Shown one piece after another: positions 16,403 through 61,252 of a stretch of DNA of 64,000 bases. The position numbers were made by a program, and so were the translations under genes. Source of the stretch: Clostridia bacterium (GTDB lineage: Bacteria > Bacillota > Clostridia > Christensenellales > Borkfalkiaceae); the NCBI GenBank assembly GCA_029066845.1, contig JAIEFR010000017.1, forward strand, positions 170,476 to 234,475, read 5' to 3'. Below the pieces are notes generated by a model. That model saw only the letters and a program-made list of their open reading frames with translations. It searched no databases and was not told the origin of the DNA. Within the stretch, counting starts at the first letter, position 1. Every line of letters starts with the position of its first letter.

Positions 16403-17254
16403 TTAAAAGTCCCAGTGAGGAATAAAATCGGTTTTTGCACTCTCTTTATCCTGCAAAAACACGTTTGTAAGCCCCAGCCTTTCCACCGCGGCGAGCACGG
16501 TTTTATACTCCCTGTCGGTTATCTTTCTTTTAAGCTCGGGGAACTTGTCCGCTTCGCCGAACGGCGTGTACTGGCTCATCAGGCTGAAATATACGTCCTT
16601 AGGCAAAGTCGCAACGAACTCCGCCACATTCACGCTGTCGTATGCTGCGAGGGGCAAAATGAGATGTCGCACTATGCACCCCGAAAGCATCTTGCCGCTT
16701 TCGTCGAACTTCAAAGGCTTTTGCGCCATAAACTCAACAGCGGGAAGCGCGTACTTCGCATAGTCCGCCCTGCCCGTGTACCGCCCCGACAGGAACGGGT
16801 CGATAAACTTCAAATCGGGCAGATATATGTCCGTGAAGCCGTCCGCTATTTCCAGCGTATCGACTTTTTCGTAGCCGTGAGTGTTGTATACCACGGGGAT
16901 ATTCGGGCGGTAAAGCCTGAACGCCTCGGCAATCTCGGTGACGTAGTGCGTGGGCGTGACAAGGTTTATGTTGTCCGCGCCCTGCTCCTCCAGCTCCCTG
17001 AAAATGCCCGCAAGCTCCTCCACCGTTATCTCTTTTCCGCGCTCGTTGCGCGACAGCTCGTAGTTCTGGCAGAACGCACAGCGCAGCGAACAGCCGCAGA
17101 AGAATACGCAGCCGCTTCCCTTGCCGTGGGATATTACGGGTTCCTCGAAAGGGTGCAGATAGTATTTTGCTATTTTAACGCCCCTTACGCCGCAGTAGCC
17201 GGCGCTCTTTTTACGGTCGGCACCGCAGGAAACCGGGCAGAGCGTGCAGTTCAT
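16403..17254 (-). CDS. Radical SAM protein, PflA-like
   Basis: 283 residues. An N-terminal cysteine set (NCTLCPVSCG, then GYCGVRG) is followed by the radical SAM motif CSLRCAFCQNY, that is CxxxCxxC. The segment THGYEKVDTLE and LPDLKFIDPFLSGRYTG fit the family annotated as putative pyruvate formate-lyase activating enzymes of AmmeMemo type. The substrate is unknown; no glycyl-radical enzyme is nearby. I chose the ATG at 17254 rather than a TTG at 17281, because TTTACA-17-TACAAT ends 6 bases before that ATG. The transcript would then begin at or near the start codon (leaderless). Heads an operon with ABC-F and the 13387 membrane protein. Confidence 0.82.
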   Translation of the reverse strand: MNCTLCPVSCGADRKKSAGYCGVRGVKIAKYYLHPFEEPVISHGKGSGCVFFCGCSLRCAFCQNYELSRNERGKEITVEELAGIFRELEEQGADNINLVTPTHYVTEIAEAFRLYRPNIPVVYNTHGYEKVDTLEIADGFTDIYLPDLKFIDPFLSGRYTGRADYAKYALPAVEFMAQKPLKFDESGKMLSGCIVRHLILPLAAYDSVNVAEFVATLPKDVYFSLMSQYTPFGEADKFPELKRKITDREYKTVLAAVERLGLTNVFLQDKESAKTDFIPHWDF

Positions 17255-17260
17255 AATACG

Positions 17261-17289
17261 ATTGTAACATAAAAAAAGCAACTTGTAAA
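17261..17289 (-). promoter_or_regulatory. Promoter giving a leaderless radical SAM mRNA
   Basis: On the minus strand TTTACA (17284-17289), 17 bases, TACAAT (17261-17266), then 6 bases to the ATG at 17254. No Shine-Dalgarno lies between. Confidence 0.7.
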
Positions 17290-17303
17290 TATATAGAATT
17301 TAT

Positions 17304-17332
17304 TTGACAATATTTTCTTTGCGGTATATAAT
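17304..17332 (+). promoter_or_regulatory. Consensus sigma-A promoter for metK
   Basis: TTGACA (17304-17309), 17 bases, TATAAT (17327-17332). The SAM riboswitch starts about 8 bases downstream. It is back to back with the radical SAM promoter. Confidence 0.88.
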
Positions 17333-17341
17333 GACGGCGTA

Positions 17342-17467
17342 ACCTATAGAGAGTGTGCGAGAGAACGGCTCTGCGACCACACAGCAACCTGCTTTGCAAG
17401 GTGCTAATACCGTACCGATGGGTAAAATAAGAAGTTTGCACCCGTTCGGTTACCGAACGGGTTTTAT
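17342..17467 (+). promoter_or_regulatory. SAM riboswitch (SAM-I clan) with antiterminator and terminator, controlling metK
   Basis: The aptamer has the SAM-I core segments GAGAGAAC, GCGACC, CAGCAACC and AAGGTGCTAATACC. P1 pairs ACCTAT (17342-17347) with ATGGGT (17418-17423). The terminator stem pairs CCCGTTCGG (17441-17449) with CCGAACGGG (17453-17461), followed by TTTTATC. The P1 3-prime strand with its flank, ACCGATGGGT (17414-17423), pairs over ten positions with ACCCGTTCGGT (17440-17450) with one bulged T, giving an antiterminator that excludes both P1 and the terminator. SAM binding should therefore stop transcription. Whether it is SAM-I proper or the SAM-I/IV variant needs a covariance search. 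Confidence 0.88.
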
Positions 17468-17485
17468 CATTGGAAGGAGTAACTA

Positions 17486-18652
17486 ATGAAAAAGTTTTTT
17501 ACCAGCGAGAGCGTAACCGAAGGACATCCCGACAAAATTTGCGACGCGATTTCCGACGCCGTTGTTGACGCCATACTGTCGCGCGACCCCTACGCCCGCT
17601 GCGCCGTGGAATGCTGCGCCGCATACGACGGGTTGCTGATTATGGGCGAAGTGACGACGACCGCTCAGGTGGATTACGAGCGCATTGCGCGCGGCACCAT
17701 TAAGAGAATAGGCTACACCTTCGGCAGCTTTGCATACGACAGCTGCAAAATTACCGTTGCCGTGCACGGTCAGAGCCCCGACATTGCGCAGGGCGTTGAC
17801 AGCTCGCTTGAAAACAGGACGGGCGAAAAGTCCGCCGAGGACGAGCTTGGCGCGGGCGACCAGGGAATGATGTTCGGGTATGCGTGCTCCGAAACCGAGG
17901 AGCTTATGCCCCTCGCTTTAACCCTTGCGCACAAGCTTGCAAGACACTTGACCGACGTGAGAAAGAGCGGGCTTCTTTCATATCTCCGCCCCGACGGAAA
18001 GACGCAGGTGACGGTTGAGTACGACGGCGACAGCCCTAAGCGCATCGACGCGGTAGTCGTATCCTCCCAGCACGACGAGAGCATAACGCAGGAGAAGCTG
18101 CGCGCCGATATTATAGAGCACGTTATCAAGGCTACCGTGCCCGCAGACCTGCTGGATAAAAACACGCGCATATTCGTCAACCCCACGGGAAGGTTTTTGA
18201 TAGGCGGTCCCGAGGGCGACAGCGGACTGACGGGAAGAAAGATTATAGTCGATACGTACGGCGGTGCGTGCGCGCACGGCGGCGGCGCATTTTCGGGCAA
18301 GGACTGCACAAAGGTTGACCGTTCGGCGGCGTATATGGCGCGGTATATCTGTAAAAACGCGGTTGCCGCGGGGCTGTGCGACAAGATTGAATTGCAGCTT
18401 GCATACGCGATTGGCGTATCCCGTCCCGTATCCGTTTTCGTGGATACGTTCGGTACGGGTAAGCTGAGCGACGGCGAGATTGCCGACGTGCTTGTGAAAG
18501 AGTTCGATATGCGCCCCTACGCCATAATAAAGACTTTGAGTTTAAGGCAGCCCATATATTCGCAGACGGCGGCTTACGGACATTTCGGCAAGCCCTCCCT
18601 CCCCTGGGAACAGTGCGACCGCGTAGAAGATTTGAAGAAGTATTTAAAATAA
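17486..18652 (+). CDS. metK: S-adenosylmethionine synthetase
   Basis: 388 residues, normal length. Family motifs are all present: [17 protein letters not shown] at the N-terminus, [12 protein letters not shown], and [16 protein letters not shown] in the active site. It makes SAM from methionine and ATP. GGAAGGAGTAACTA places a strong ribosome site before the ATG. Expression is expected to fall when SAM is plentiful because of the upstream riboswitch. Monocistronic, ended by a strong hairpin. Confidence 0.98.
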
Positions 18653-18669
18653 TTCATAACGAAAAAAAG

Positions 18670-18698
18670 AGCCCTGCCCCTCGTCGAGGGGCAGGGCT
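18670..18698. terminator. Terminator after metK (also faces ligA)
   Basis: A 12- to 14-base GC-rich stem (AGCCCTGCCCC and complement) is followed by TTTATTTTATTTCTTTTT on the plus strand and by a T run on the minus strand. It lies between convergent metK and ligA. Confidence 0.92.
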
Positions 18699-18713
18699 TT
18701 ATTTTATTTCTTT

Positions 18714-22993
<4,280 letters not shown>

Positions 22994-23008
22994 AAGTGTA
23001 TTGTTAGT

Positions 23009-23037
23009 ATTATACCATAAAGGGCGCGTATAATCAA
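23009..23037 (-). promoter_or_regulatory. Sigma-A promoter for pcrA-ligA
   Basis: On the minus strand TTGATT (23032-23037), 17 bases, TATAAT (23009-23014), 15 bases before the ATG. The predicted leader is 8 to 9 bases. Confidence 0.65.
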
Positions 23038-23045
23038 GGAATTGA

Positions 23046-23423
23046 CTATAACGCGCTCTCTTTTTCTTTTCTGTATTTTTCCAGTGCCGCAAGGTATTTG
23101 CTTGAAAGCTCCATAGTGTACCGCTGACGTTCCTCGTAGGACAGGGTTTCGAAATATTCCCTGTCGGTCAGTCTGCCTATTGCGTCGGAGGTTTCTCCGT
23201 ACTCGTCTAAAAGCTTTTTGACCTTTAAATAGAATTCGTCCTCCGCCTCGCCGCGGATAACGCTTTTGACTTTATCGTACAGGTGTGATTTTACTTTGCC
23301 GGCGTTCTTGCCGTTTTTTTCCGCTTCGCGCGCGGTGGTATCCACATCCTCCTTGCACCTCCGCCAGAAGTCGGTGCCCAACCGCCGTTTTGCCTGTTTT
23401 GCAATTGCCTTTATATCGTCCAT
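23046..23423 (-). CDS. Hypothetical charged helical protein, 125 aa
   Basis: I do not recognise this protein. It is rich in K, E, R and D with predicted helices throughout, no membrane segment and one cysteine. The start reads MDDIKAIAKQAKRRLG and the end LEKYRKEKESAL. AAGGTG lies 5 bases before the ATG. It lies upstream of pcrA on the same strand, with the pcrA promoter in the gap, so some read-through is likely. A terminator after rpsU separates it from the gene before. Confidence 0.65.
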   Translation of the reverse strand: MDDIKAIAKQAKRRLGTDFWRRCKEDVDTTAREAEKNGKNAGKVKSHLYDKVKSVIRGEAEDEFYLKVKKLLDEYGETSDAIGRLTDREYFETLSYEERQRYTMELSSKYLAALEKYRKEKESAL

Positions 23424-23528: not shown

Positions 23529-23535
23529 AAATTTT

Positions 23536-26198: not shown

Positions 26199-26227
26199 TT
26201 GCAAAGAGGGGCGCGGTGCGGTACAAT
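26199..26227 (+). promoter_or_regulatory. Promoter giving a leaderless queH mRNA
   Basis: TTGCAA (26199-26204), 17 bases, TACAAT (26222-26227), then 6 bases to the ATG at 26234. No Shine-Dalgarno is present. Confidence 0.72.
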
Positions 26228-26233: not shown

Positions 26234-26830
26234 ATGAACGCGAAAAATTGCGACGCCGAAATGAAGAAGATTATTGCGGGACTGGACGGCGCAAAGCCGC
26301 GCCTTTTGCTGCACGCCTGCTGCGCGCCCTGCTCCTCCGCCTGTCTGGAAAGACTGCACTCCCACTTCGGCGTGACGGCGTTTTTCTATAATCCCAACAT
26401 AGAGGACGAAGAATATTTTAAGCGCAAAGCCGAGCTCATCCGCTTTATAAACGAAACGGGCTGGGCGGGCATATGCGACTGCGAGCACGACACCGCCGTG
26501 TACTATTCCGCGGTTGAGGGAATGGAAAGCTACCCCGAGGGCGGCGAGCGGTGTGCGGCGTGCTTTAAGCTTCGCCTCGAACGCACGGCAATTGAAGCTA
26601 AACGCAACGGCTACGACTACTTTGCCACCACCCTCACTTTGAGCCCGTTGAAGAACGCGGAGCTTATAAACCAAATAGGATACGGGCTTGCGGAAAAGTA
26701 CGGCGTTAAGTGGCTGCCCAACGATTTCAAAAAGGCGGACGGATATTTAAGAAGCCTGCAGCTCAGCAAAGAGCACGAATTGTACCGCCAAAATTACTGC
26801 GGGTGCGTATTCTCGCTGCCAAACACTTGA
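26234..26830 (+). CDS. queH: Epoxyqueuosine reductase QueH
   Basis: 198 residues. Paired cysteine motifs HACCAPCSSAC (near residue 30) and ERCAACFKLRLE, and the ending CGCVFS, match QueH, which reduces epoxyqueuosine to queuosine in tRNA using an iron-sulfur cluster. FYNPNIEDEEYFKRKAE is also typical. The ATG at 26234 is chosen over a GTG at 26216 that lies within the promoter spacer and -10 region. With the -10 box 6 bases away, the mRNA should be leaderless. Other queuosine genes are not nearby. Confidence 0.9.
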   Translation: MNAKNCDAEMKKIIAGLDGAKPRLLLHACCAPCSSACLERLHSHFGVTAFFYNPNIEDEEYFKRKAELIRFINETGWAGICDCEHDTAVYYSAVEGMESYPEGGERCAACFKLRLERTAIEAKRNGYDYFATTLTLSPLKNAELINQIGYGLAEKYGVKWLPNDFKKADGYLRSLQLSKEHELYRQNYCGCVFSLPNT

Positions 26831-28714: not shown

Positions 28715-29383
28715 TTAACTTTTTGCAATTATCCTGTAAATATTTTTGCCCATATCCGAAAAGCGTTTTTCGTGTTCTGTGACAATGTTTTCGGGGTCGG
28801 CAAGCGCGGCTAAGTCCTCGCACTTTTCCAAAATTTCATAGCCGCACTCCGCATAGCTTTCCAGCGAAAAGCGGTAAAAATCGCCGTCGTCCGTCTTCTG
28901 CACTATTTCGCCGCCTTCCTTTAAAAGCGCTCTGTACATATTTAAAAAGCGCGGATGTGTAAGGCGCTGTTTGACGTAGCCGAGCTTGGGCAGAGGGTTG
29001 GAAAAGTTGAGATAGATTTTATCTACCGACTCCTCCTTCACGTAGCGCGGCAGCACCTCGGCGGCACTGTTTATGAAGTGAACGTTTTTAAGATTTTCCG
29101 CCTTAGCCCTTTCCACCGCCTCTATCAAAACGTTGGAAATTTTTTCGACGGCAACGAAGTTTATTTCGGGGTAACGCGCCGCGAGCTCGCAGACGAATTT
29201 GCCCTTGCCGCAGCCTATTTCCAAGCGGACGGGGTTGGAGTTTTTAAAGAGCTTTGAAAAGTCAAGCTCCTCCCTCTCCGCGGCGGCGTGCTTCATATTC
29301 TTATCGGTCAGATCGGCTACGGTAAGTATATCGCCGCAGGCTGACAGTCTTTCGTCCAGGTGTGATTTTCTGTGCATTCTCAT
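28715..29383 (-). CDS. trmB: tRNA (guanine-N7-)-methyltransferase
   Basis: 222 residues. The SAM-binding motif LEIGCGKGKFV is followed by NFVAVEKISNVLIEAVERAK and, at the C-terminus, TEHEKRFSDMGKNIYRI, all typical of TrmB. The usual DPWPK motif reads NPLPK (NFSNPLPKLGY), a tryptophan-to-leucine change at a normally conserved site. The start at 29383 (MRMHRKSH) is supported by a promoter whose -10 box is 7 bases upstream and by the absence of any ribosome site, so this is another leaderless candidate. First gene of a two-gene operon. Confidence 0.92.
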   Translation of the reverse strand: MRMHRKSHLDERLSACGDILTVADLTDKNMKHAAAEREELDFSKLFKNSNPVRLEIGCGKGKFVCELAARYPEINFVAVEKISNVLIEAVERAKAENLKNVHFINSAAEVLPRYVKEESVDKIYLNFSNPLPKLGYVKQRLTHPRFLNMYRALLKEGGEIVQKTDDGDFYRFSLESYAECGYEILEKCEDLAALADPENIVTEHEKRFSDMGKNIYRIIAKS

Positions 29384-29390: not shown

Positions 29391-29420
29391 ATTTTATCAC
29401 ATACCGCCCCTGCGTTGCAA
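29391..29420 (-). promoter_or_regulatory. Promoter giving a leaderless trmB mRNA
   Basis: On the minus strand TTGCAA (29415-29420), 18 bases, TAAAAT (29391-29396), then 7 bases to the ATG at 29383. Confidence 0.65.
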
Positions 29421-40063: not shown

Positions 40064-40837
40064 TCAGCCGAGTTTTTTAAACAGCCTGCAAGCGTTTTCC
40101 ATAACCGCTTTTTGCACGGTTTCGGGCGTTAACCCCTTAATATCCGCTATGCAAGCGCAAATTTCGGGTATTGCAAGCGGCGTGTTGGGAAAAGTTCCGT
40201 ACGCACTTGCAGGCGGCATATACGGACTGTCCGTTTCGGTAAGTATGCTTTCGAGCGGCAAAAGCGTAAGCGTGCGCTTGGCTTTTTTGTTGCTCTTCCA
40301 GGTGCTCGCGCCGCCGAACGAAAAGCTTAAGCCCAGCTTTAAAAACTCCTCCGCCATCTCCGTAGAATGTGAATAGCAGTGCATAAGCGCGCCGTTTTGC
40401 AAAAGGTGCTTATGCTCCGAAAGCAGCGAAAGCATATCCTCGGCGCAGTCGCGCGAATGTATCTGAACGGGCATTTTAAGCCTGTCCGCAAGCTCGAGCT
40501 GTGCGATAAACACTTCGCGCTGCAACTCCTTCTGCGTATCGGGATAGTGATAGTCCAGCCCGATTTCGCCCAGAGCAACGCACTTGGGATGCGCGCACAA
40601 ACCGGCTATTGCGTCAAGGTCGCCGTCTTTATACTTCGAAAGCTCGGTGGGGTGAAAACCCGCGGTGAAGTAAACTCCTTCGTGCCCTTCCGCAATTTCC
40701 GCGGCGAGGCGCGAGGACGGTAAATCGAACCCGACGGTTATAATCCTGCCCACATCCTGCTCGGCGCACCTGTTTATAAGCGCGGAAATATCGCCGTAGT
40801 TTTCGTGGTCCAGATGACAGTGAACGTCTATAAACAT
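40064..40837 (-). CDS. tatD: TatD family metal-dependent deoxyribonuclease
   Basis: 257 residues. FIDVHCHLDH, GEIGLDYHY, IHSRD, MHCYSHS and LTETDSPYMPP give the metal-binding set of the TatD amidohydrolase-fold nucleases. It overlaps metG by one base (TAATG), a gene order seen widely in Firmicutes. The biological role is in DNA or RNA quality control. Confidence 0.93.
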   Translation of the reverse strand: MFIDVHCHLDHENYGDISALINRCAEQDVGRIITVGFDLPSSRLAAEIAEGHEGVYFTAGFHPTELSKYKDGDLDAIAGLCAHPKCVALGEIGLDYHYPDTQKELQREVFIAQLELADRLKMPVQIHSRDCAEDMLSLLSEHKHLLQNGALMHCYSHSTEMAEEFLKLGLSFSFGGASTWKSNKKAKRTLTLLPLESILTETDSPYMPPASAYGTFPNTPLAIPEICACIADIKGLTPETVQKAVMENACRLFKKLG

Positions 40838-42834
40838 TACGATAACAAGCTGCCGTCGGGCAAATCCTTTTCGGGCGAAACGACCGACAGCGTGCCGTCG
40901 GGTCCCTCCGCGCAGATAATCATACCTTCGGACAAAAGCCCTTTCATCTCTCTGGGCGGCAGGTTGGTGACGACGATTACCTTTTTGCCGACCATTTCCT
41001 CGGGCGTGTAGTACTTTGCGATGCCGCTTAAAACGGACAGCGTTCTGTTGCCGACCTTAATGGTTTCGTGCAGAAGCTTACTCTTTTTGACCGCCTCGCA
41101 CGCGGTGACAAGACCGACCTGCATACGCACCTTAAAGAAGTCGTCGATAGTGATCTGAGGCACTTCCTCCTCTTCTTTAGCGGGCGCAGCCTCCGCCATT
41201 TGCGCGGCGGCTATTTTTTCTATTTTGCCCTTTATATCCTCGAAATTTATGCGCTCAAACAGCGTCTTGGGCTCTTTAGTCACGCAATATTCGGGGGTTA
41301 AACCGAATTTATCCAGTTTTTCGTACTGCCTTTCGCTTGTGCCCAGCTCCTTCAGAATGCTTGCGCACGTGTCGGGCATAAAGGGTTTTATAAGGTTTGC
41401 GCCTATTGCAATCGCCTCGCTGAGGTTGTACATAACCTGCTGCAAACGGGGCGCGTTCGCCTCGTCCTTGGCAAGCACCCAGGGCGCGGTTTCGTCGATA
41501 TACTTGTTCGCCCTTCTGAACAGCGACCATATCTCGTCCAGCGCGTCGGCAATTTTGTACTCGTCCATTTTAGCCTGCATCTTGTCCCTTACCGAACGCA
41601 CGGTATCGGCAAGCTCGCCGTCCACGGCTTCGCTGACGCCAGTGGGCGCAACCTTACCGCCGAAGTACTTGTTGGTCATTGCAACCGTGCGCTTGACGAG
41701 GTTGCCCAGAACGTTGGCAAGATCGGAATTGACGCGCTCGGTTATAAGCTCCCAGGTGATAATGCCGTCCGAATTGTAGGGCATTTCGTGTAGCACGAAG
41801 TAGCGCACCGCGTCCACGCCGAACATATTCGAAAGGTCGTCGGCATACATAACGTTGCCCTTGGACTTGGACATCTTGTCGCCGCCCTGCAACAGCCAGG
41901 TGTGACCGAATACGGTCTTGGGCAGCTCCACGCCCAGCGCCATCAAAAAGATAGGCCAGTATATGGTGTGGAATCTTATTATGTCCTTGCCGACGATATG
42001 CACGTCCGCAGGCCAGAAATCCTTGAACTTCTGCGAGGGGTTGTCCACGTCGTAGCCCAGCCCCGTGATATAGTTGGTCAGCGCGTCCAGCCAGACGTAT
42101 ACTACGTGGCGGCTGTCGAAGTCAACGGGTATGCCCCACTTAAACGACGTGCGCGAAACGCACAGATCCTGCAGCTTGGTCTTTAACGTGCCGCTTTCAA
42201 CCGCCTTTAAAAGCTCCTCGTCGCTCTTGCCCACAAACTCGTCCGCAAGCAGGAAATTGTTCATCATCTCGTTCTTTCTTGCAACGGGCTGAATAAATTC
42301 GGGGTGGGATATTATGTGCTTAATCAGTCTGTCAGCGTACTTGCCCATTTTGAAGAAGTACGCCTCCTCCTTTGCGGGCTTTACCTCTCTGCCGCAGTCG
42401 GGACACTTGCCGTCCACAAGCTGGCTCTCCGTCCAGAAGCTTTCGCACGGAGTGCAGTAAAGCCCCTCGTACGACGACTTGTAGATGTCGCCCTGCTCGT
42501 AAAACTTTTTGAAAATCTTTGCAACCTGCCTTTCGTGGTCACTATCCGTCGTGCGGATAAACTTGTCGTAGGACACGTTCATCAAATCCCAGATCGACTT
42601 GATGGTGCCCGCGACGTCGTCAACGAACTGCTTGGGCGTAACGCCCTTGTCGGCGGCTTTAAGCTCCACCTTCTGACCGTGCTCGTCGGTGCCCGTCTGG
42701 TAAATGACCTCGTAGCCCTGCATACGCTTAAGGCGCGCGATTGCGTCGCACAGAATGACTTCGTAGGTGTTGCCGATGTGCGGCTTGCCCGACGTGTAGG
42801 TTATTGCGGAAGTTAAATAAAATGCGTTTTTCAT
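40837..42834 (-). CDS. metG: Methionyl-tRNA synthetase with C-terminal tRNA-binding domain
   Basis: 665 residues. HIGH is KPHIGNTYE (near residue 18), the zinc knuckle is CTPCESFW and CPDCGRE, and KMSKS is GGDKMSKSKGN. The C-terminal 110 residues (TIDDFFKVRMQVGLVTACE) form an EMAPII/Trbp111-type tRNA-binding domain. No T-box or riboswitch is seen. The -10 box TATATT lies 9 bases before the ATG and no ribosome site exists, so the leader would be 2 or 3 bases. Coupled to tatD. Confidence 0.97.
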   Translation of the reverse strand: MKNAFYLTSAITYTSGKPHIGNTYEVILCDAIARLKRMQGYEVIYQTGTDEHGQKVELKAADKGVTPKQFVDDVAGTIKSIWDLMNVSYDKFIRTTDSDHERQVAKIFKKFYEQGDIYKSSYEGLYCTPCESFWTESQLVDGKCPDCGREVKPAKEEAYFFKMGKYADRLIKHIISHPEFIQPVARKNEMMNNFLLADEFVGKSDEELLKAVESGTLKTKLQDLCVSRTSFKWGIPVDFDSRHVVYVWLDALTNYITGLGYDVDNPSQKFKDFWPADVHIVGKDIIRFHTIYWPIFLMALGVELPKTVFGHTWLLQGGDKMSKSKGNVMYADDLSNMFGVDAVRYFVLHEMPYNSDGIITWELITERVNSDLANVLGNLVKRTVAMTNKYFGGKVAPTGVSEAVDGELADTVRSVRDKMQAKMDEYKIADALDEIWSLFRRANKYIDETAPWVLAKDEANAPRLQQVMYNLSEAIAIGANLIKPFMPDTCASILKELGTSERQYEKLDKFGLTPEYCVTKEPKTLFERINFEDIKGKIEKIAAAQMAEAAPAKEEEEVPQITIDDFFKVRMQVGLVTACEAVKKSKLLHETIKVGNRTLSVLSGIAKYYTPEEMVGKKVIVVTNLPPREMKGLLSEGMIICAEGPDGTLSVVSPEKDLPDGSLLS

Positions 42835-42843: not shown

Positions 42844-42872
42844 AATATATCATAAACTTAGCTAAAAGTAAA
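42844..42872 (-). promoter_or_regulatory. Promoter giving a near-leaderless metG mRNA
   Basis: On the minus strand TTTACT (42867-42872), 17 bases, TATATT (42844-42849), 9 bases before the ATG. It overlaps the divergent spmA promoter region. Confidence 0.6.
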
Positions 42873-42882: not shown

Positions 42883-42911
42883 GAATATTCGGACGCGCGG
42901 ACAAATATTAT
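42883..42911 (+). promoter_or_regulatory. Sigma-E-like promoter for spmAB
   Basis: GAATATT (42883-42889) matches the sigma-E -35 consensus KMATATT; 14 bases later AATATTAT (42904-42911) matches five of eight positions of CATACAAT. No sigma-A -35 is present. The ATG at 42918 follows 6 bases after. Confidence 0.55.
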
Positions 42912-42917
42912 TACTTT

Positions 42918-43508
42918 ATGAACGCCATTTTTACGACAATTTTTTTGCTGTCTGCGGCGGTTATGTGTTTTACCGCTCCCGCCGACTTTCTGCCCGCTAT
43001 GCTGGACGGCGGAATGAACGCCGCAAAATGCTGTCTGACACTGTTCTGCATATACGTCGTCTGGATGGGACTTTCTGCCGTAGCCGAGGACTGCCGCATA
43101 ACCCAAGGCGCCGCAAAGCTTTTATCGCCGCTGTGCACCCGCCTCTTCAAAACAAAAAACAAGGAAGCGGTTGAAAGCATAACTATGAATATAAGCTGCA
43201 ACCTTTTAGGAATAGGCGGCGCGGCAACCCCATACGCGGTTAAGGCGGTCAACGCGCTGGAAAAGGATAAAAACAACTACGCGCAGGAACTGCTGTTTAT
43301 AATAAACGCCACGTCCATACAGCTCATTCCCACCACCGTAATCGCATTGCGCGCGGCGGCGGGCAGTACGGCGGCGTTCGATATTGCGATTCCCTCGCTT
43401 ATAGCAACCTTCGTTTCGACTTTTACGGGCGCGGCGCTCTATATAGCGTTCAACAGGATTAAAGCAAAGCGCGCGGCAAAGGACAAAAGGGCAAAATGCA
43501 GTACGTAA
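42918..43508 (+). CDS. spmA: Spore maturation protein A
   Basis: 196 residues, about four membrane segments with nucleoside-recognition (Gate) domain motifs: NISCNLLGIGGAATPYAVKA and INATSIQLIPTTVIALRAAAG. Paired with spmB, it affects spore core dehydration and heat resistance in Bacillus. The ATG at 42918 is preferred over an upstream frame start at 42804 that lies inside divergent metG. No ribosome site; a sigma-E-like promoter ends 6 bases upstream, so the mRNA may be leaderless. It overlaps spmB by 13 bases. Confidence 0.9.
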   Translation: MNAIFTTIFLLSAAVMCFTAPADFLPAMLDGGMNAAKCCLTLFCIYVVWMGLSAVAEDCRITQGAAKLLSPLCTRLFKTKNKEAVESITMNISCNLLGIGGAATPYAVKAVNALEKDKNNYAQELLFIINATSIQLIPTTVIALRAAAGSTAAFDIAIPSLIATFVSTFTGAALYIAFNRIKAKRAAKDKRAKCST

Positions 43509-46332: not shown

Positions 46333-47199
46333 TCATTCCTCCTTGGTCGGCACAACCGTTTTGGTCATAATAAAGGTATGCTTGCCGCGATACCTGCTCT
46401 TTGCGTACCGCGCAAACTGGTCGTTTTCAAATACGGCGAACACGCCGCTGCCTGAACCAGTCATATTAACCCCAAGCGGGTCGAACGCCTTCAACTGATT
46501 ATAGCACTCTTCAACGTCGCCGTTCAGCCTTATTGCGGCGGCGTACAGCCCGTTGGATAAGCTTGCGCCTATATCCTGCTTATTGCCGGCAAGCACGGCT
46601 TTTTGAGCCTCGTTACTGGTAAATTGCGCGCTTGCCCCCGTACTATCGCTAAGCGAATAGCACTGCGCCGTGGAAACGCCGCTTTTGGGAATAAGCAGAC
46701 CTATTTCCAGCTTGACGCCGCTTTTCAGTTTTTCGACCTTATCGCCGCGCCCCGTCAGCCTTGCAAAGCCGCCCGTCAGCATATATCCGCTGTCGCTGCC
46801 CAGTCCGTCGGCAAGCTGCTTTAAGGTGCGCATATCGTTTACTTCGTACAGCTTAGCCATCGCGTTCAGAACACCCGCGACGTCCGCGGAAGAGCCGCCC
46901 AGCCCCGCGCCCATCGGGATATTCTTCCACACGGTAATATCCACGCCGTCCGTCCCGAAGCGCGCAATAAACAGCTCCGCCGCCTTTGCCGCGTTGTTGT
47001 TTTCGTAAGGGATACTCTCGCTGCCCTCGCCGTGCATAGTCACCGAAACAAGCTTGTCCCTGCGCCTTTTTACGGCTATTAAATCGTAAAGGTCTATGCT
47101 TGCAACCACGCTGTCAATCGTATGGTATCCCCCGTTCACGCCGGTAATATCCAGCGTGAGATTGATTTTTGCATACGATTTGACACGAACGTAATTCAT
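46333..47199 (-). CDS. ispE: 4-diphosphocytidyl-2-C-methyl-D-erythritol kinase
   Basis: 288 residues of the GHMP kinase fold: SYAKINLTLDI at the N-terminus, the phosphate loop IPMGAGLGGSSADVA and MTGSGSGVFAVF near the end. It phosphorylates CDP-ME in the non-mevalonate isoprenoid pathway. The ATG at 47199 is supported by a -10 box (TATAAT) 6 bases upstream, so the mRNA should be leaderless; an upstream frame start at 47262 is rejected. Confidence 0.94.
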   Translation of the reverse strand: MNYVRVKSYAKINLTLDITGVNGGYHTIDSVVASIDLYDLIAVKRRRDKLVSVTMHGEGSESIPYENNNAAKAAELFIARFGTDGVDITVWKNIPMGAGLGGSSADVAGVLNAMAKLYEVNDMRTLKQLADGLGSDSGYMLTGGFARLTGRGDKVEKLKSGVKLEIGLLIPKSGVSTAQCYSLSDSTGASAQFTSNEAQKAVLAGNKQDIGASLSNGLYAAAIRLNGDVEECYNQLKAFDPLGVNMTGSGSGVFAVFENDQFARYAKSRYRGKHTFIMTKTVVPTKEE

Positions 47200-47205: not shown

Positions 47206-47234
47206 ATTATAACATAGAGCGGCGGCGTTTTCAA
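47206..47234 (-). promoter_or_regulatory. Promoter giving a leaderless ispE mRNA
   Basis: On the minus strand TTGAAA (47229-47234), 17 bases, TATAAT (47206-47211), then 6 bases to the ATG at 47199. Confidence 0.75.
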
Positions 47235-47310: not shown

Positions 47311-48801
47311 TCAGTTGGCTTTTTTGCCCCTGTAAACTATTATTCTTTCCTTGCCCGTCAGCGGGAATTTGAGTTCCGCATTGCAGGCGGATACGTCGTC
47401 GGGAGATTTTTTCAGCTTCTTGGCTATATCCCACAACCCGTCGCCCGCCGTAGGCAGGAACACGGATACCGCGCAGTCGTTGACTTCGACCTCCTCGCCC
47501 TCCTCGATTTGGGTAAGGTATGTAACCTTGCGCTCGTCGCACACGGTCACGCATATTTTAAGCGTGGCTTCGGCTTCCGCCTCGCCCTCGGCTTTGAGGC
47601 GTACGCTCACGCCGCACACCGCAACGTCCTCGGTTACACTCTGACCTTCCTCACGCACACCGTTCAAAGCGACAGAGAAGGGCAGGCTGACGTCCGTGCT
47701 CTTGATTTCGCCGTTCTGCTCGTATACAAGCACGGTATTCACCGCGCCCTCCACGCAGCCCGTCTGCTCGTTGAAGGAGCACTCCGCCTGAGGAAGTGCG
47801 GCGGCAAGGAATTTGCAGTCGTAGGTGAGCTTGCTCTTTGTTGCGGCAAGTCCCGAAACGCGCTCGGTGTACACCTTTACGTCCACGCAGCGAGGCATAA
47901 CCTCCTCGGTGCTCGTGAGCTCTACGGCGTTGGTATCGGAGAACGCATCTACGGCGACATCCTCGGTATGCTCGTCGGCAAACCAGCCGCTGAGGTTAAG
48001 GTTGCACACGAAATTTATATCGCATCTGCCCTTATCCTCGTTGACGTTCGCCGTCACGTTCAAATCGCTTATCTCGGCGCGGGTAGCCGCTCTGCGCCCG
48101 ACGGACGCGTCGTCGCAGGGTATTATGCATTTAAAGGGAATAATTCTTTCAAGACAGGTGGGATTCTGCTGGCGCATTGCAAACAGCGAAAGATAAATTT
48201 CTCCGCTGGCTTCCACCTCGCCCGTGCCGCAGGCAGAGGAAAGAACTACCGCCTTTGCGCAGGGAATGAGCACGTCTACAACGCTGTCAGCTTCGAAGTC
48301 GTCCTCAACCTCGCTCTCTCCCGAGAAGGTGACGGCGGAAGAAAAACTGAGGCTTTCCTTCTTTACGAACGCGCCCTCCGCGCCGCACACGTAGGTTCTG
48401 TCGGTGCGTGCATAGATGGATATATCCGCAGATATTATGGCGGCAATCACGAAAGAGGAGCCCTCGCGCTTGACCGTAGTCTTATCGCAGGTGAGCGCGC
48501 AAACGCCGTTCTGCGCGGGAGCAAGACAGTCGTCGTCCGCAAAGTGGGAGAATTCCGCACCCTTCTGCATACGGCACAGCTTGCCGTCCTCGTCGCAATA
48601 TACTATGGTCAATATGAGCTTGCCGCTGTAATTGACGCGCCCGGACGATACCTCGCACGAAACGAGAGAAACCTGCGGGTATACCGCTACGACTTCGGTT
48701 ATTTCACTCGATTGGGGAAAGCGGCACTCCACCACGCTCTGACTTTCGATTTGCTTTATAAGCTTATTACAGCCTTCGGAATTTTGCAGTTGTTTCAACA
48801 T
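47311..48801 (-). CDS. SPOCS (DUF3794) and LysM protein, SipL-like
   Basis: 496 residues. Repeated beta-rich SPOCS/DUF3794 domains fill most of the protein (for example VVAVYPQVSLVSCEVSSGRV and VNYSGKLILTIVYCDEDGK). The end is a LysM domain (GDGLWDIAKKLKKSPDDVSACN). This is the plan of SipL, which links SpoIVA to the forespore membrane in Clostridioides. The count of cysteines is high for such a protein. AGGAGCTGTGAT precedes the ATG. It lies 50 bases after a Veg-like gene, probably in one operon. Confidence 0.83.
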   Translation of the reverse strand: MLKQLQNSEGCNKLIKQIESQSVVECRFPQSSEITEVVAVYPQVSLVSCEVSSGRVNYSGKLILTIVYCDEDGKLCRMQKGAEFSHFADDDCLAPAQNGVCALTCDKTTVKREGSSFVIAAIISADISIYARTDRTYVCGAEGAFVKKESLSFSSAVTFSGESEVEDDFEADSVVDVLIPCAKAVVLSSACGTGEVEASGEIYLSLFAMRQQNPTCLERIIPFKCIIPCDDASVGRRAATRAEISDLNVTANVNEDKGRCDINFVCNLNLSGWFADEHTEDVAVDAFSDTNAVELTSTEEVMPRCVDVKVYTERVSGLAATKSKLTYDCKFLAAALPQAECSFNEQTGCVEGAVNTVLVYEQNGEIKSTDVSLPFSVALNGVREEGQSVTEDVAVCGVSVRLKAEGEAEAEATLKICVTVCDERKVTYLTQIEEGEEVEVNDCAVSVFLPTAGDGLWDIAKKLKKSPDDVSACNAELKFPLTGKERIIVYRGKKAN

Positions 48802-52304: not shown

Positions 52305-52553
52305 ATGCATTTCACGGAAAATTTTGCTCTTTTTAATCTTTTGAAGCTGCTCGGCGGTATGACCTCCGCGCAGAACGGCACTCCTGCGGCACAGCCTGCG
52401 GAAAACGATTTTGCCGCTCCGCAGGTCAATACGCGCACCGACGGCGCAACGGCAACCCAAACCGCGCCGCCGTCCGAGGAAAAACACAACGTTATGGCGG
52501 ACGTTATAGAGCGGCACGAACGCATAGTAAACCGCGCGAAAAACACAAAGTAA
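52305..52553 (+). CDS. Hypothetical small protein, 82 aa
   Basis: Not recognised. A short hydrophobic start (FALFNLLKLLGG), an A/P/T/Q-rich middle and a basic helical end (VMADVIERHERIVNRAKN). AAGGAG is present but only one base before the ATG, which is unusually close, so the true start may differ. A perfect 11-base terminator directly after the stop supports a real plus-strand transcript. Confidence 0.5.
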   Translation: MHFTENFALFNLLKLLGGMTSAQNGTPAAQPAENDFAAPQVNTRTDGATATQTAPPSEEKHNVMADVIERHERIVNRAKNTK

Positions 52554-57000: not shown

Positions 57001-57898
57001 TTCTGCCGTTCTCATAGTTGAGGGTAACGGCCAGACCGTTATAATTGAACTCTCTGCCCTTTAAAAGCTTTGTAACCGCGCCGCTTACGGTTATGCCGCT
57101 CTTATCGGAAACTTCCAACTCCTCGCTAATGGATATTTTATACAGACGGAACGAACCCTGCGTTGCGACCGAATACGTACCCGCCTCAAGATTTGTAAAC
57201 TCTAAGCCGTCCGCAGCAACACCGTTTCCGACGTTAGTCTTTTCACCAAGCTTTTCGCCGCTTGCATCACCCTTATAAACGGTTATGCTTGCAGTACCGG
57301 ACGAAGCACCTTCACCCCAAACTATAAGCGAATTGGTTCTGCCCGTTAAAGTTACGGTGAAAGTTTGACCCTGAGTGTTTACGCAGTCCGTCAGTTTAGA
57401 ACCGTTATAAGTGTTGGTCGACGTTTTGCCCGGCTCGAACCTCATTCCGCTGGCAAACTTAAACTTGCCTGCGTAAACGTATCCGTCGTTACCGACAGTA
57501 CCATTCGCCGTATCGCTGCCGCCGTTTGCATTGCTGGCCTTTTTAAAGTCAACCGAAGTAGTAACCGTTTCGTACTGTGTTTCCTCATCGCCGGGCGTAG
57601 GCGTGGGCGTGGGTGTCGGAGTGGGCGTAGGCGTAGGCGTCGGAGTTTCTTCCTTCGGAACTAACTGATAGCCGCAGTCGGGGCACTTGCCCTGGTCGTT
57701 TGCCGTGCCGTGAGGTACGGTTTCGGTGTGCTGGTCGGTATGCTTACAGTTCGCCTCGTGATAGTGACCTGCGGCGCCGTCCGCTTTCCAGTCGTCGGAA
57801 TAGGTGTGCTTGTGAGCGCAGCCTGCCGCGCCTGCAACGCCCGTTCCGATTGCGCCCGCAATTACGAACACGGACAGAAGTTTGGTTAATTTATTCAT
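54041..57898 (-). CDS. Multidomain pectinesterase (CE8) lipoprotein
   Basis: 1285 residues. Order: lipoprotein signal ending GAAGC; a His-rich region with CPDC; a (TP)n linker; a carbohydrate-binding-like beta domain; a bacterial Ig-like domain (VSGAVTKLLKGREFNYNGL); the CE8 pectin methylesterase domain; a Listeria-Bacteroides-type repeat; and three more beta modules, two of them related (NNSWARWKDDNASISF and NNSWLKFGSDAGGISF). In CE8 the catalytic aspartates are kept (HDTLYAD, TDYIFGD) with the arginine in LARGWD, but the usual QDTLY glutamine is His. The ATG at 57898 follows GGGAGGAAAA; an upstream TTG frame start is rejected. Demethylates pectin at the cell surface, by inference. Confidence 0.85.
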   Translation of the reverse strand: MNKLTKLLSVFVIAGAIGTGVAGAAGCAHKHTYSDDWKADGAAGHYHEANCKHTDQHTETVPHGTANDQGKCPDCGYQLVPKEETPTPTPTPTPTPTPTPTPGDEETQYETVTTSVDFKKASNANGGSDTANGTVGNDGYVYAGKFKFASGMRFEPGKTSTNTYNGSKLTDCVNTQGQTFTVTLTGRTNSLIVWGEGASSGTASITVYKGDASGEKLGEKTNVGNGVAADGLEFTNLEAGTYSVATQGSFRLYKISISEELEVSDKSGITVSGAVTKLLKGREFNYNGLAVTLNYENGRTDAVEVTANMVDSSAVDMETAGKYTVKVKYHDAKDDADFEDTYEVAVYEIDSIALEMYDLNANRETKNVQQVFAKSSSFNSTNLGVVATTSCPGIEAKEKFVLSAATGNEEYSVSGGDTATAGAKTVTVTALDKQTATATYGIQVVDGAFAELAEYEITVDKTAAFAVDAAAGTATVNTVNQALQLLKLGENVKDTAVKTIKIKAGEYKEKVEIDIPNVHFVGDISGAQTMKDVVIWYDALSLTVAHGGVAHSTDGSATVSIRKTGTGFTAKNISFKNYYNTNALYEESKKLGANTQAVACLVRADMVTFENCFFTSYHDTLYADNGRQVYEACEIEGRTDYIFGDNATAYFHNCTVNTIGAGDSKNGGYIVATKGSGVEYGYIFDGCTFGGDDAVTPGTVSLARGWDSGMRLMFMNSEFSDAYSLEYYGDTTSNKNDRYTKMNADPKPAQLFEYNNTGDGALTEAIIATKDSKGVIANMCTVPTAADAAKFADFDIIFAQKNGSVTYAAAWAGTNEQITITIDVEDMDNLEVKVNKNVKLTKALAEELFEIEDYKLTGLYTDATRATAFVYGTALTEAQTLYATYTEADPTIRTSINYVYANDDSHNHGGDDDGAAIDKIKKVTCSDIVVNNSWARWKDDNASISFTALKGTVITITVSGSETLVFNTDEAAADGGVVTYTVTQDGVVTIKRKAGTNAYFRTLSIQVPVTETVIYDYTTDDRYVKDGTADGTAVEGVYNLTFTNMNVNNSWLKFGSDAGGISFIGVKDTIVTIDVYSGTSGLVVTNGVAVNDAEAGEDGVILKSSSADTITFKVAADGLVTIKRQAGNGNSYLSKIKVDPPQTNFGYVYGGTIDTAWVNGGTAEQTSTNGVKALKLAAGTYLTLTLPEAKNKATITLQGWTDGSGMAQPYVNVEFYDADDQLISGATQVGTTPANRDNGPITFGPDNDKKTTITVETETAFKYIKITSNTSGKGIEISSATVKVE

Positions 57899-58032
57899 TT
57901 TTCCTCCCTTATTGAATTGCCGATGCTTTTTTACAGTTAAAAATGTTTGCGCGGCGTTTTGCAACGCCGCGCCCTCTTTTAACCGTAGGATAAAAGAAAG
58001 GCTTTTCAATAATATTTATTTACACTGCTTTT

Positions 58033-58061
58033 ATTTTATCACTAAGTCAATCGCAAGTCAA
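58033..58061 (-). promoter_or_regulatory. Sigma-A promoter for the pectinesterase gene
   Basis: On the minus strand TTGACT (58056-58061), 17 bases, TAAAAT (58033-58038). A second TTGACT lies inside the spacer. Confidence 0.68.
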
Positions 58062-58074
58062 TATATTTTAGTTA

Positions 58075-58103
58075 ATTCGTAACGAATTTTGTTACAAAGT
58101 AAC
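58075..58103. promoter_or_regulatory. Two adjacent palindromes upstream of the pectinesterase promoter
   Basis: ATTCGTAACGAAT (58075-58087) and GTTACAAAGTAAC (58091-58103) are perfect odd-length dyads 3 bases apart, placed just upstream of the -35 box. They look like operator sites for a regulator or activator. Confidence 0.55.
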
Positions 58104-58141
58104 ATATACGTATCACCGCAGACAAGCCGTTCAATGCCCCG

Positions 58142-60583
58142 TCAGCTGCCCTTTCTTTTTAGGGTTACGCTGCCGCCGTCGCCGAAGTTTACAATCAAAT
58201 CGTTCGACGATTGCCATATATCGTGTTTATACTTGCCGCCCTTGTCGATTGCCGACCACTGTTCGGGCGTGCCCGCATAGTTGATAACCTCCGCACAGCC
58301 GAGCGCGCTTTCCCCGATTTCGGTCACGCAAGCGGGCAGGTCGTATTCGGTGAGCGAAGTGCAACGGTAGAACGCAGACTCCCCTATTTCCTCCACGGCT
58401 TTAAGGTCAACCGACATAAGCGCAGTGCAGGAATTGAACGCATAATTACCTATCTTTTTGATACCGTTCGGGAGCGTAGCCAACCGCAAATTTTTGCAGC
58501 CGCTAAACGCAGAATTTCCTATTTCGACGACGTCGGTAGCCGCAATATCCAAGCCTTCCAGCCTCGTGCAGTCGGTAAACGCACTGTCGGCTATCTTCTT
58601 CACGCCGCGCTGAATTGCAATATTTGAAAGCGACCTGCACTCCCTGAACGCGCCGTCCCACGCCTGCACGCTTGCGGGCACCTCTACCGCCGTTATGCCC
58701 GATTCCGCGAAAGCGCGCTCGCCTATAAACTTCAGGTTCGAAGTTTCGTCCGAGCCGACAAGCGCAACGGTAGTCAACACGGAGGTATCGTTCGTTTCCG
58801 TCTTTCTGAACGCGTTGCCGTATATGCCCGTGTAGCCGCTCAGATCGAGACCGGTTGCGCCGCCGTTCGAATAATCGGAAGAAATTACCCAGCCGTCTAT
58901 ACTGTTCACGCCGTTTTCGCTTTTGGTGTAGGCGAGTGAGGAAAGGTCGCCGAGTGCATAAGTGCCCAAGTATTCAACGCCGCCCAGATTGATGCTTTCA
59001 AGTCCGTTGAAAGCATTTGCTCCTATACGCTTTACTCCCGCACTCAGATTGACCGTCTTTAGAGCCGTGCAATACCGGTATGCGTAGGCAGGAATATCGC
59101 CATCCCCGAACAGCGTAAGCGTCTGAACGGATGACGCGTTGTGTCCGTAGTTTGCAGGCACGGTAAGCTCCTTAACCTTGCAGTCCTTTAAAATATTTTC
59201 GCCCACCGATTCAACCGTGTTGTTGATAATAATTTTATTTGCCGTAATGCCCTTGTCGCCTGCCCGACCGTAATTGAAGCAGCCGCCGCCTATGGCTTTT
59301 ACGGTTGTCGGCAAAACTATATCCAGCGTTGCCGCGCCCTTGATTGCAAACGCAAGGTCGCCGATAGTTTCCAGTCCCTCGTTAAACTTTATCTGCGAAA
59401 GACTGTTGCAGTCCGCAAACGCCTTGTCGCCCACCGACTTCACCGAAGCGGGCAGCGAAAGAGAGGTTATTCCCGTTTCCTTGAACGCCGACTCGCCAAT
59501 GCTTTCGACGCCGTTTTCAATTGTTAAGCTTACAAGGCTCCGGCAGGCGTAAAAGGCTTCCTCGCTCACCGTCTTTAAGGAAGCGGGAATGGTAACCGCG
59601 GTAAGCCCGCTTTCCCAGAACGCTTGGTCGCCTATTTCGGTCAGCGTTGCGGGCAGGCTTATATTTTTTAATGCAAAGCAATAGCCGAACGCCATTTCAC
59701 CAATGGAGGTCACGCCCTCGCCAAGCGTTACGTCGGAAAGGTTTTCCGCCCACTGAAACATTTTATCCTGAACAGGGCTGTCTATGCTGATTTTGCTCAG
59801 CACGTTAAGGTTCGCCGCGCACGATTCAAGCCTATTGCCAATCGTCATTTCGGTCAGCTTTTCACAGCCGCCGAAAGCGCGCTCCCCGATAGTTACGATA
59901 TTGGGCAGGTTAAACGAAACGACGTTCGCGCAATTATAAAACGCCAAGTTGCCCAGCGCCTCCACACCCGCGGTGTTAACACTTTCGAAAGCGCAACCGT
60001 AGAAGCAGTTTGCGCCTATCGTTTTAACCGTGTCGGGCAGGGTCAGGGTTGCAAGCGCGGAGCAGCCCTCGAAAGCGCGTTCGCCTATTTCGATCAGCCC
60101 GCTCTCAAACGCAATGCTTTCAAGCTTCGTGCAGTCGCTGAAAGCGAGCTTGCCGACCGACGTAACCGCAGGAAAATCGACCATTTGCAAAAGCACGCAG
60201 CTGTCGAAAATTCTGTCTGGCAGTACGGAAATCGTATCGGGCAAAGTCACCTGCTTTACGCCCGTTCCGCTGAACGCATAGCCTTTAACCGAAGTCACCG
60301 CCTTGCCGTTCACCGTGTCGGGAACGGTTACGGTTTCGCCGTCGCCCTTATACCCTTCAACAAAATTGTCGTCCTCGTCGTATCCGTCGCGGAGGTCCGC
60401 ATACTCGTAGCGCGCAAGCTCGTACGTGTCGTCGTCTTTAAGCTCGAACCGCATATTGTCCTGTATAAAGGATTTATCGTCCCCGTCGTCTTTTCCGCCG
60501 CCGAACAGTCCGCACCCCGCAAAAGCCGCCGCCGACGTCACCGCCGTAACGGCAAGCGCACAAGCAAAAAATTTTTTCTTCAT
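58142..60583 (-). CDS. BspA-type leucine-rich-repeat lipoprotein
   Basis: 813 residues. A lipoprotein signal ends AFAGC, then a short acidic region, then more than 20 LRR_5/BspA units of about 23 residues with the core I-x-x-x-A-F-x-x-C-x-x-L (for example GERAFEGCSALATLTLPDTV and GESAFKETGITSLSLPASV). Such proteins bind host or bacterial surfaces; the ligand is unknown. AGAGGTAGTT precedes the ATG. The next gene downstream is the pectinesterase lipoprotein on the same strand, with its own promoter and no clear terminator between. Confidence 0.9.
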   Translation of the reverse strand: MKKKFFACALAVTAVTSAAAFAGCGLFGGGKDDGDDKSFIQDNMRFELKDDDTYELARYEYADLRDGYDEDDNFVEGYKGDGETVTVPDTVNGKAVTSVKGYAFSGTGVKQVTLPDTISVLPDRIFDSCVLLQMVDFPAVTSVGKLAFSDCTKLESIAFESGLIEIGERAFEGCSALATLTLPDTVKTIGANCFYGCAFESVNTAGVEALGNLAFYNCANVVSFNLPNIVTIGERAFGGCEKLTEMTIGNRLESCAANLNVLSKISIDSPVQDKMFQWAENLSDVTLGEGVTSIGEMAFGYCFALKNISLPATLTEIGDQAFWESGLTAVTIPASLKTVSEEAFYACRSLVSLTIENGVESIGESAFKETGITSLSLPASVKSVGDKAFADCNSLSQIKFNEGLETIGDLAFAIKGAATLDIVLPTTVKAIGGGCFNYGRAGDKGITANKIIINNTVESVGENILKDCKVKELTVPANYGHNASSVQTLTLFGDGDIPAYAYRYCTALKTVNLSAGVKRIGANAFNGLESINLGGVEYLGTYALGDLSSLAYTKSENGVNSIDGWVISSDYSNGGATGLDLSGYTGIYGNAFRKTETNDTSVLTTVALVGSDETSNLKFIGERAFAESGITAVEVPASVQAWDGAFRECRSLSNIAIQRGVKKIADSAFTDCTRLEGLDIAATDVVEIGNSAFSGCKNLRLATLPNGIKKIGNYAFNSCTALMSVDLKAVEEIGESAFYRCTSLTEYDLPACVTEIGESALGCAEVINYAGTPEQWSAIDKGGKYKHDIWQSSNDLIVNFGDGGSVTLKRKGS

Positions 60584-60619
60584 AACTACCTCTTTAAACA
60601 GTATAATTTACTGACTATA

Positions 60620-60648
60620 ATTTTATTATGTGCAAAAATAAAAAGCAA
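60620..60648 (-). promoter_or_regulatory. Sigma-A promoter for the BspA-type gene
   Basis: On the minus strand TTGCTT (60643-60648), 17 bases, TAAAAT (60620-60625). Confidence 0.55.
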
Positions 60649-60696
60649 GCAACGCCGCTTTACAATCCGTCAACTTAACCTTGCAAATTAAAAAAA

Positions 60697-60710
60697 CCGC
60701 CTTGCGGCGG
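60697..60710 (-). terminator. Terminator after the XRE gene
   Basis: CCGCC and GGCGG close a TTGC (GCAA on the minus strand) loop; seven T follow on the minus strand. Confidence 0.75.
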
Positions 60711-60722
60711 CTTATTTTTATG

Positions 60723-61217
60723 CTACTTTTTCTTACGTTTCTTTATTACTATCACGCTGACGACGAACGCTATCAAAAACATAACCGCCCACCCGGGAGC
60801 CACTATCAGAAGCATATAAAAGGTTGCCGGGTCCGCGAGGTTAGCCGACTTCATTACGACAAGCATAAATATGAACGCCGAAAGCGCGCTGACGCCTATC
60901 AGCGCAAGCGTGATTATGCCCGCGATTATAAGCGCCCTGACTATGCCCGACTTTTTCCTTGCGGGCTTGACTTCGGGGGCTTCTGGCACGGTTGCGGACT
61001 GCGGTTCGTCCGCCGCTTCCACGCCGTTTATCAGCCAGTCCAGGCTCACGCCGAAATATGCGCCTATCGCAGCCGCCTTTTCGGAGTCGGGCACGCTCTG
61101 TCCCGTCTCCCACTTGGAAACCGCCTGACGCGATACGCCGAGCTTATCTGCAAACTCCTCCTGCGACAAGCCGCTCTTCTTTCTCAGATTATAAATTCTT
61201 TCGCCGAATTCAACCAT
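60723..61217 (-). CDS. XRE-family regulator with two C-terminal membrane segments
   Basis: 164 residues. The helix-turn-helix (RIYNLRKKSGLSQEEFADKL and GVSRQAVSKWETGQSVP) occupies the first 65 residues and two membrane segments lie near residues 92-118 and 130-155. Membrane-anchored XRE proteins of this build are common in Clostridia and probably sense an envelope signal. The ATG at 61217 has TATAAT 6 bases upstream and no ribosome site: another leaderless candidate. Target genes are unknown; nearby surface-protein genes are possible. Confidence 0.88.
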   Translation of the reverse strand: MVEFGERIYNLRKKSGLSQEEFADKLGVSRQAVSKWETGQSVPDSEKAAAIGAYFGVSLDWLINGVEAADEPQSATVPEAPEVKPARKKSGIVRALIIAGIITLALIGVSALSAFIFMLVVMKSANLADPATFYMLLIVAPGWAVMFLIAFVVSVIVIKKRKKK

Positions 61218-61223
61218 AGCCAC

Positions 61224-61252
61224 ATTATACACCGCCTCGCAAAAAATTGCAA
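61224..61252 (-). promoter_or_regulatory. Promoter giving a leaderless XRE-regulator mRNA
   Basis: On the minus strand TTGCAA (61247-61252), 17 bases, TATAAT (61224-61229), then 6 bases to the ATG at 61217. Confidence 0.78.

Follow-up and report, generated by a model that had tools for sequence, protein, structure and literature searches.

A conserved promoter-to-start spacing and predicted leaderless genes in a Clostridia genome

Genes and promoters of the window

The window analyzed here, a stretch of 64,000 nucleotides from contig JAIEFR010000017.1 of a Clostridia bacterium (assembly GCA_029066845.1), carries six genes whose -10 promoter box ends only 6 to 9 bases ahead of the ATG, and five of them are predicted to give leaderless mRNAs. 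The host genome consists of 25 contigs with 1,561,092 bases and is 99.1% complete. Among the best 80 of 592 loci in a search of named genomes, the closest relatives of its metG gene were uncultured Clostridia with at most 84% identity, and metG of Candidatus Onthoplasma faecipullorum, assigned by NCBI to the order Christensenellales, was 67% identical; the host genome probably belongs to this order too.

Four of the five predicted leaderless genes lie on the minus strand. The gene for a radical SAM protein (rSAM; 16403..17254; Pfam PF04055 and PF13353) has the promoter TTTACA-17-TACAAT-6-ATG, with the -10 box at 17261-17266 and the -35 box at 17284-17289, and trmB, encoding a putative tRNA methyltransferase (28715..29383; PF02390), has TTGCAA-18-TAAAAT-7-ATG (-10 at 29391-29396, -35 at 29415-29420). 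The GHMP kinase gene ispE (46333..47199; PF00288 and PF08544) is preceded by TTGAAA-17-TATAAT-6-ATG with a TGn motif before the -10 box (-10 at 47206-47211, -35 at 47229-47234), and a gene for an XRE-type regulator (60723..61217; PF01381) by TTGCAA-17-TATAAT-6-ATG (-10 at 61224-61229, -35 at 61247-61252). The fifth gene, queH, encodes an epoxyqueuosine reductase on the plus strand (26234..26830; PF02677) behind TTGCAA-17-TACAAT-6-ATG (-35 at 26199-26204, -10 at 26222-26227). The near-leaderless methionyl-tRNA synthetase gene metG (40837..42834, minus strand; PF09334) has TTTACT-17-TATATT-9-ATG (-10 at 42844-42849, -35 at 42867-42872).

All boxes and spacings could be read from the sequence exactly as an earlier sequence-only reading had given them. 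The same reading had found no Shine-Dalgarno (SD) sequence before the six genes, and the longest match to AAAGGAGGTG between positions -20 and -4 was indeed 0 bases for rSAM, ispE and metG, 3 for trmB and 4 for queH and XRE, where the match falls within the promoter itself. Strong SD sequences are present elsewhere in the window, for example before the gene at 47311 and, as had been noted, before metK (17486).

Spacing, conservation and reach of the pattern

Genes were called by codon (coding) scores with starts picked blind to upstream motifs, a procedure that sometimes errs (one start was set 24 bases too far upstream), and a gene was counted as first in its operon when it was divergent or followed a gap of at least 40 bases. 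A strict -10 box was defined as TA...T with five of six positions agreeing with TATAAT. The sample from our own genome, made up of the window and 20 further stretches, held 163 such first genes, and in 11 of these the strict box ended 6 bases before the start, which ranks first of 54 distances; distance 7 had 4 genes, and the 53 distances other than 6 averaged 2.25 genes with a maximum of 6. Distance 6 also ranked first in a genus sample (9 of 175 genes from 20 stretches of 19 genomes; mean of the others 2.74) and in 20 stretches from families rich in the signal (12 of 168; mean of the others 2.38), while 20 stretches from signal-poor families (f2, f4 and f11) had no gene at this distance among 158 (mean of the others 1.40), a contrast that is partly non-independent because the genomes of both groups, as well as one genus genome (G200), were chosen after a pattern scan, G001-G018 being chosen otherwise. 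A mainly Lachnospiraceae panel (65 loci, L036-L100, with 541 first genes) had 11 genes at distance 6, rank 3 of 54, against a mean of 5.87 for the other distances. When the own, genus and signal-rich samples were pooled, distance 6 accounted for 32 of 506 genes and every other distance for at most 15. The fixed distance from -10 box to ATG that had been proposed, together with a histogram as its check, thus appears in all three samples as a peak at exactly 6, which leaves metG with its distance of 9 outside. The strict filter also admits likely chance cases, such as 52305-52553, with distance 7 and an AAGGAG.

An SD match of at least 5 bases precedes 60 of the 163 own first genes, which stand beside the set without SD, so that two initiation modes would coexist in the genome, as had been suggested. 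Among the own first genes, T occupies -1 in 78% of the 69 whose SD match is 3 bases or fewer, versus 48% of the 60 with at least 5, and a pyrimidine at -1 is significantly enriched in this sample (14/15 versus 30/60).

A pattern that needs no gene calls, TTG-N20-TANAAT-N5-TATG, matched 20 times in our own genome and only once when the last gap was lengthened by six bases as a control. The ATG opens an open reading frame of at least 64 amino acids with a positive coding score in 18 of the 20 matches (the other two frames have 12 and 17 codons), and for 12 of these 18, reading upstream in frame reaches a stop before any other start codon; several align to a Pfam family from residue 2-10 onward. 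Pfam names were obtained for 14 of the 18, the remaining four being unscanned or without a match, and include QueH, the ispE-type GHMP kinase, two HTH_3 proteins (one of them the XRE regulator), PrmA, an iron-dependent repressor, ApbE, ThiF, a phosphorylase-superfamily protein, an HI0933-like protein, PAP2, a hexapeptide transferase and a GNAT protein. The promoter-to-ATG spacing class is real and goes beyond chance.

Within the order, 248 genomes together gave 2,544 matches to the pattern versus 381 to the control, and 150 of them had at least 5 matches and three times their own control. Ratios of pattern to control were 7.6-21.5 in families f1, f3, f6, f8, f9, f16, f18, f19, f24, f28, f30 and f32 (f9 and f30 being one genome each and f8 two), 4.9 in f10 and 1.0 in f4, f13 and f15, with the other families intermediate or represented by few genomes. 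In 198 genomes of the phylum outside the order there were 335 matches versus 232 in the control, with 10 in the top single genome, and 15 genomes reached the same rule. The trait looks like one confined to part of a single order, about a dozen families, with a weak background elsewhere. As tabulated and uncorrected for phylogeny, genomes tend to be small in signal-rich families (0.8-1.3 Mb in f28, 1.2-1.9 Mb in f1) and larger in the flat family f4 (1.6-4.2 Mb).

Orthologs were sought in 30 relatives, the genus being represented by 19 genomes including our own, and 17 copies of ispE, 16 of queH, 15 of trmB and 17 of rSAM were counted there after excluding genomes without a match and two with only weak rSAM-like matches. 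With a looser rule for the -10 box (four of six positions), the distance is 6-7 in 17/17 ispE, 15/16 queH, 14/15 trmB and 15/17 rSAM copies, own copies included, together 61 of 65; under the five-of-six rule the numbers are 17, 13, 13 and 15, or 58 of 65. The non-own genus copies are 42-85% identical on the protein level. The base at -1 is T or C in all 65 copies, information content in the genus upstream alignments peaks mainly at -35, -10 and -1, and in three orthologs (ispE of L106, rSAM of L174 and L175) a GTG takes the place of the ATG at the same distance, keeping a purine at +1. For XRE, matches were obtained in all 31 genomes, and their use as orthologs was rejected since most were other HTH proteins; three close copies were kept, our own and those of two genus genomes (L203-L205), all with distance 6.

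Conserved protein sequence upstream of the assigned ATGs, proposed earlier as the observation that would speak against leaderless genes, was not seen in homologue N-termini inspected by eye for ispE, queH, trmB and rSAM. For these four genes the N-termini coincide within the genus; for XRE the basis is the two close copies only. The genus copies of rSAM share a cysteine-rich start, CxxCPVxC, from residue 3. One genus trmB (L166) has a GGGAGG and a longer leader and begins with the same MRM residues, as do leadered trmB copies from other families (L170 and L172), which supports the assigned trmB start.

The 32 copies from other families were kept separate from the 65, and their nearest start codon was assigned automatically, which is doubtful where the match begins late (e.g., L149, L153, L154, L196 and L197). 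Distances of 6-7 were found in 7 of them: ispE 3/11 (L118, L119 and L120, all 6), queH 2/10 (L146 and L151), trmB 1/3 (L171, distance 7) and rSAM 1/8 (L194); the ispE copy of L121 has distance 8.

Predicted leaderless initiation and its rivals

RNA polymerase with sigma-A begins transcription about 7 bases past the -10 box and prefers a pyrimidine followed by a purine. With 6-7 bases between the -10 box and the ATG, transcription likely begins at the start codon itself, and on the evidence of spacing and conservation we regard it as highly probable that rSAM, queH, ispE, XRE and trmB are transcribed from their start codons as leaderless mRNAs and translated without an SD sequence. The first transcribed base would be the start codon's A (or G), next to the -1 pyrimidine, and this 5'-terminal codon would be engaged by a ribosome to which initiator tRNA is already bound, directly as a 70S particle or with initiation factor 2 (IF2). 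SD and leaderless modes would run side by side in one genome, the latter apparently being kept gene by gene through selection on spacing. The 16S 3' end was located with CCTCCTTT in 3 of 31 genomes, including one of the same genus, and in these three relatives the anti-SD is intact. Direct binding to 70S ribosomes has been described for leaderless mRNAs (PMC5397173), as has a requirement for initiator tRNA on the small subunit, in which IF2 is central (PMC10783764). The best reading is a mixed system of many SD-led genes and a conserved minority with predicted leaderless mRNAs. The suggestion that these genes form a leaderless or near-leaderless class fits the peak at distance 6, the conserved copies and the absence of conserved protein upstream.

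The rival that survives best, which we still consider unlikely, is that the promoters near the ATG are secondary and that a stronger one further upstream gives a leadered transcript, as has been reported for C. phytofermentans. Some genus copies do have further -10-like hexamers 25-43 bases upstream (L103, L104, L106, L136, L140, L142, L165, L177 and our own rSAM, where a strict one lies at 33, beyond the near box), the XRE copy of L205 has one at 44, and a second upstream start may exist at the copies with extra hexamers. In addition, 14 of 17 genus copies of rSAM share a TGTCAAW motif located at -46 to -59 relative to the start, possibly an operator. No second strict -10 box was found beyond the near one within 50 bases of the ispE, trmB and XRE starts. 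The additional hexamers occur here and there in a small number of copies, whereas the near box is kept in 61 of 65 (upstream regions mostly covering 60 bases), and the five window genes keep no SD sequence that would serve a leadered transcript. In our own genome the TGTCAAW motif lies at about 17302-17309, just 5' of the rSAM -35 box (genus copies L174-L189).

It is quite improbable that the TATAAT-like element is not a promoter but serves the ribosome as an S1-type or A/T-rich site of weak structure. One paper warns against simply assigning A/T bias before start codons to leaderless mRNA, since S1 sites may be its source (PMC5397173), but the elements described here have promoter features: a -35 box at a spacing of 17-18, a TG ahead of the -10 box of several genes, a single preferred distance of 6 and the pyrimidine at -1, and altering the last gap alone reduced the matches in our genome from 20 to 1. 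Still less probable is that the ATGs are wrong and that a leadered mRNA is translated from a codon further downstream; further ATGs do exist at codon 3 of trmB and codon 10 of queH, and the start caller was wrong once in the window, but protein similarity in the genus begins at the assigned ATGs, the rSAM cysteines start at residue 3, and leadered trmB copies have the same start residues. Chance, with some of many -10-like hexamers landing near ATGs, is hardly credible, since the chance-like case at 52305 and the 335 versus 232 matches in the rest of the phylum stand against 20 versus 1 matches in our own genome, 2,544 versus 381 in the order and 61 of 65 orthologs, the conservation covering ispE, queH, trmB and rSAM and not genes seen in a single genome.

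Besides the extra hexamers and the TGTCAAW motif, several observations weigh against leaderless initiation of the five genes as a conserved mode. The 6-7 spacing is lacking in four of the 65 genus copies (L136, L166, L177 and L187) and in 25 of the 32 copies from other families. The strict excess at distance 6 is small, with 6.2% of the first-in-operon genes in our own genome, 3.7% in the genus and 5.3% in the rich families, and the 6.2% exceeds only modestly the 2-4% that mapping has given for other clostridia. The -1 pyrimidine was not significantly enriched in the genus sample (9/12 versus 38/58) or in the rich stretches (11/13 versus 52/80), folding of the 5' end did not differ between putative leaderless and SD genes (p 0.75, 0.80 and 0.40), and the A-rich early codons sought in the leaderless class were not found, A being slightly less frequent there. 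A search of the assembly for the 3' end of our own 16S rRNA was negative.

Previous work has found leaderless genes in 207 of 953 surveyed bacterial genomes, within Firmicutes mostly in Lactobacillales and Mycoplasma (PMC3160421), and 21.6% of bacterial species were predicted by GeneMarkS-2 to have leaderless transcription, according to PMC9581028. Our genes resemble the TA-led genes of Actinobacteria and Deinococcus-Thermus, with a short distance from the -10 box to the start, no SD sequence and a coexistence with SD-led genes, but around 20% and 40% of genes, respectively, are leaderless in those phyla (PMC3160421), compared to an excess of 6.2% of sampled first-in-operon genes here. The leaderless genes of Lactococcus and Streptococcus, also Firmicutes, share the TATAAT and a peak of TG ahead of it; they belong to a different lineage, and the -35 box is taken to be probably missing in Lactococcus (PMC3160421), in contrast to its conservation alongside the -10 box here. 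In cultured clostridia, transcription likewise starts at or a few bases from the start codon in a potential 4% of cases in C. phytofermentans (PMC5171806), in 2-3% in three solventogenic strains (PMC9045289) and in 15 genes of C. difficile (PMC7438776). The sequence-only reading had held that frequent leaderless mRNA is no textbook feature of Clostridia, and from these sources such mRNAs are rare, yet not unheard of. The C. phytofermentans cases generally keep a ribosome-binding site (RBS) and another transcription start site, unlike the five genes here, which lack an SD sequence and have a spacing conserved across species. Among open-licence PMC papers, we found none on leaderless genes or transcripts in Christensenellales or Christensenella, or on leaderless genes and their promoters in metagenome-assembled genomes. 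The leaderless kind is thus already known from Actinobacteria and Deinococcus, while a conserved set without an RBS in Clostridia seems to be new.

Apparent change of initiation mode and neighboring features

The sequence-only reading had included metG in the class, and its promoter is as described and near-leaderless at distance 9, but it falls outside the peak and its layout is not kept in the genus. Among 15 genus relatives examined, the distance is 7 in G007 and 9 in G005; in ten the nearest usable -10 box lies at 24-34, with SD matches of 4-7, and in three no strict -10 box was found within 40 bases. As a conserved leaderless member, metG was therefore rejected on the strength of these ten relatives. 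Apparently, metG became near-leaderless by a recent loss of its leader, and the simplest reading, made without a tree, would be one loss in an ancestor of our own genome and G007 and another in G005. With the leader loss of metG and the longer leader and SD sequence of trmB in one relative, it appears that genes can switch mode.

A divergent gene on the plus strand (42918-43508; PF07670), encoding a Gate-domain protein that we take to be spmA-like, is preceded by two blocks conserved in 16 genus upstream regions (42883..42913), GMATA-like at -35 to -31 and MATAAANATA-like at -14 to -5. The latter ends 4 bases before the ATG, -1 is T in all 16 genus copies, and SD matches are at most 4 bases. 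Judged by consensus sequences, the blocks may belong to a promoter of a sporulation sigma factor, and the gene is perhaps leaderless from such a promoter. CATA boxes before first genes showed no clear peak near the ATG in the own or genus samples. In the mainly Lachnospiraceae panel, CATA at -14 occurred in 8 of 541 genes, the top position there, which could reflect start-proximal sporulation-type promoters.

A wider proposal, to which we give slightly less than an even chance, is that about a dozen families of one order of small-genome Clostridia share an ancestral and selected leaderless set, with ispE as its oldest visible member, as a stable second mode that would include the sporulation-type promoter of the Gate-domain gene, with switching between modes by loss or gain of a short leader. 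Clostridia are usually treated as SD-led, and a conserved leaderless set would alter the calling of gene starts in a large and mostly uncultured order. The same gene with and without a leader in sister species, as for metG and trmB, would offer natural pairs for studying ribosome requirements, and the set is relevant to the question of whether leaderless initiation survives as a remnant from an ancestor or arises again and again.

Three further features of the window were observed. A gene without an SD sequence at 20654-22993 has a TATAAT 15 bases ahead of the ATG assigned to it; with a leader that would measure about 9 bases, it is neither leaderless nor SD-led. A SAM riboswitch (RF00162; 51.3 bits) lies at 17341-17424 before metK, divergent from the rSAM gene. 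At 6640-6830, a gene that we take to be ribosomal protein L9-like from its translation has a TTGACA...TACAAT promoter and an SD-led start at 6736, the automatically called start at 6760 being wrong.

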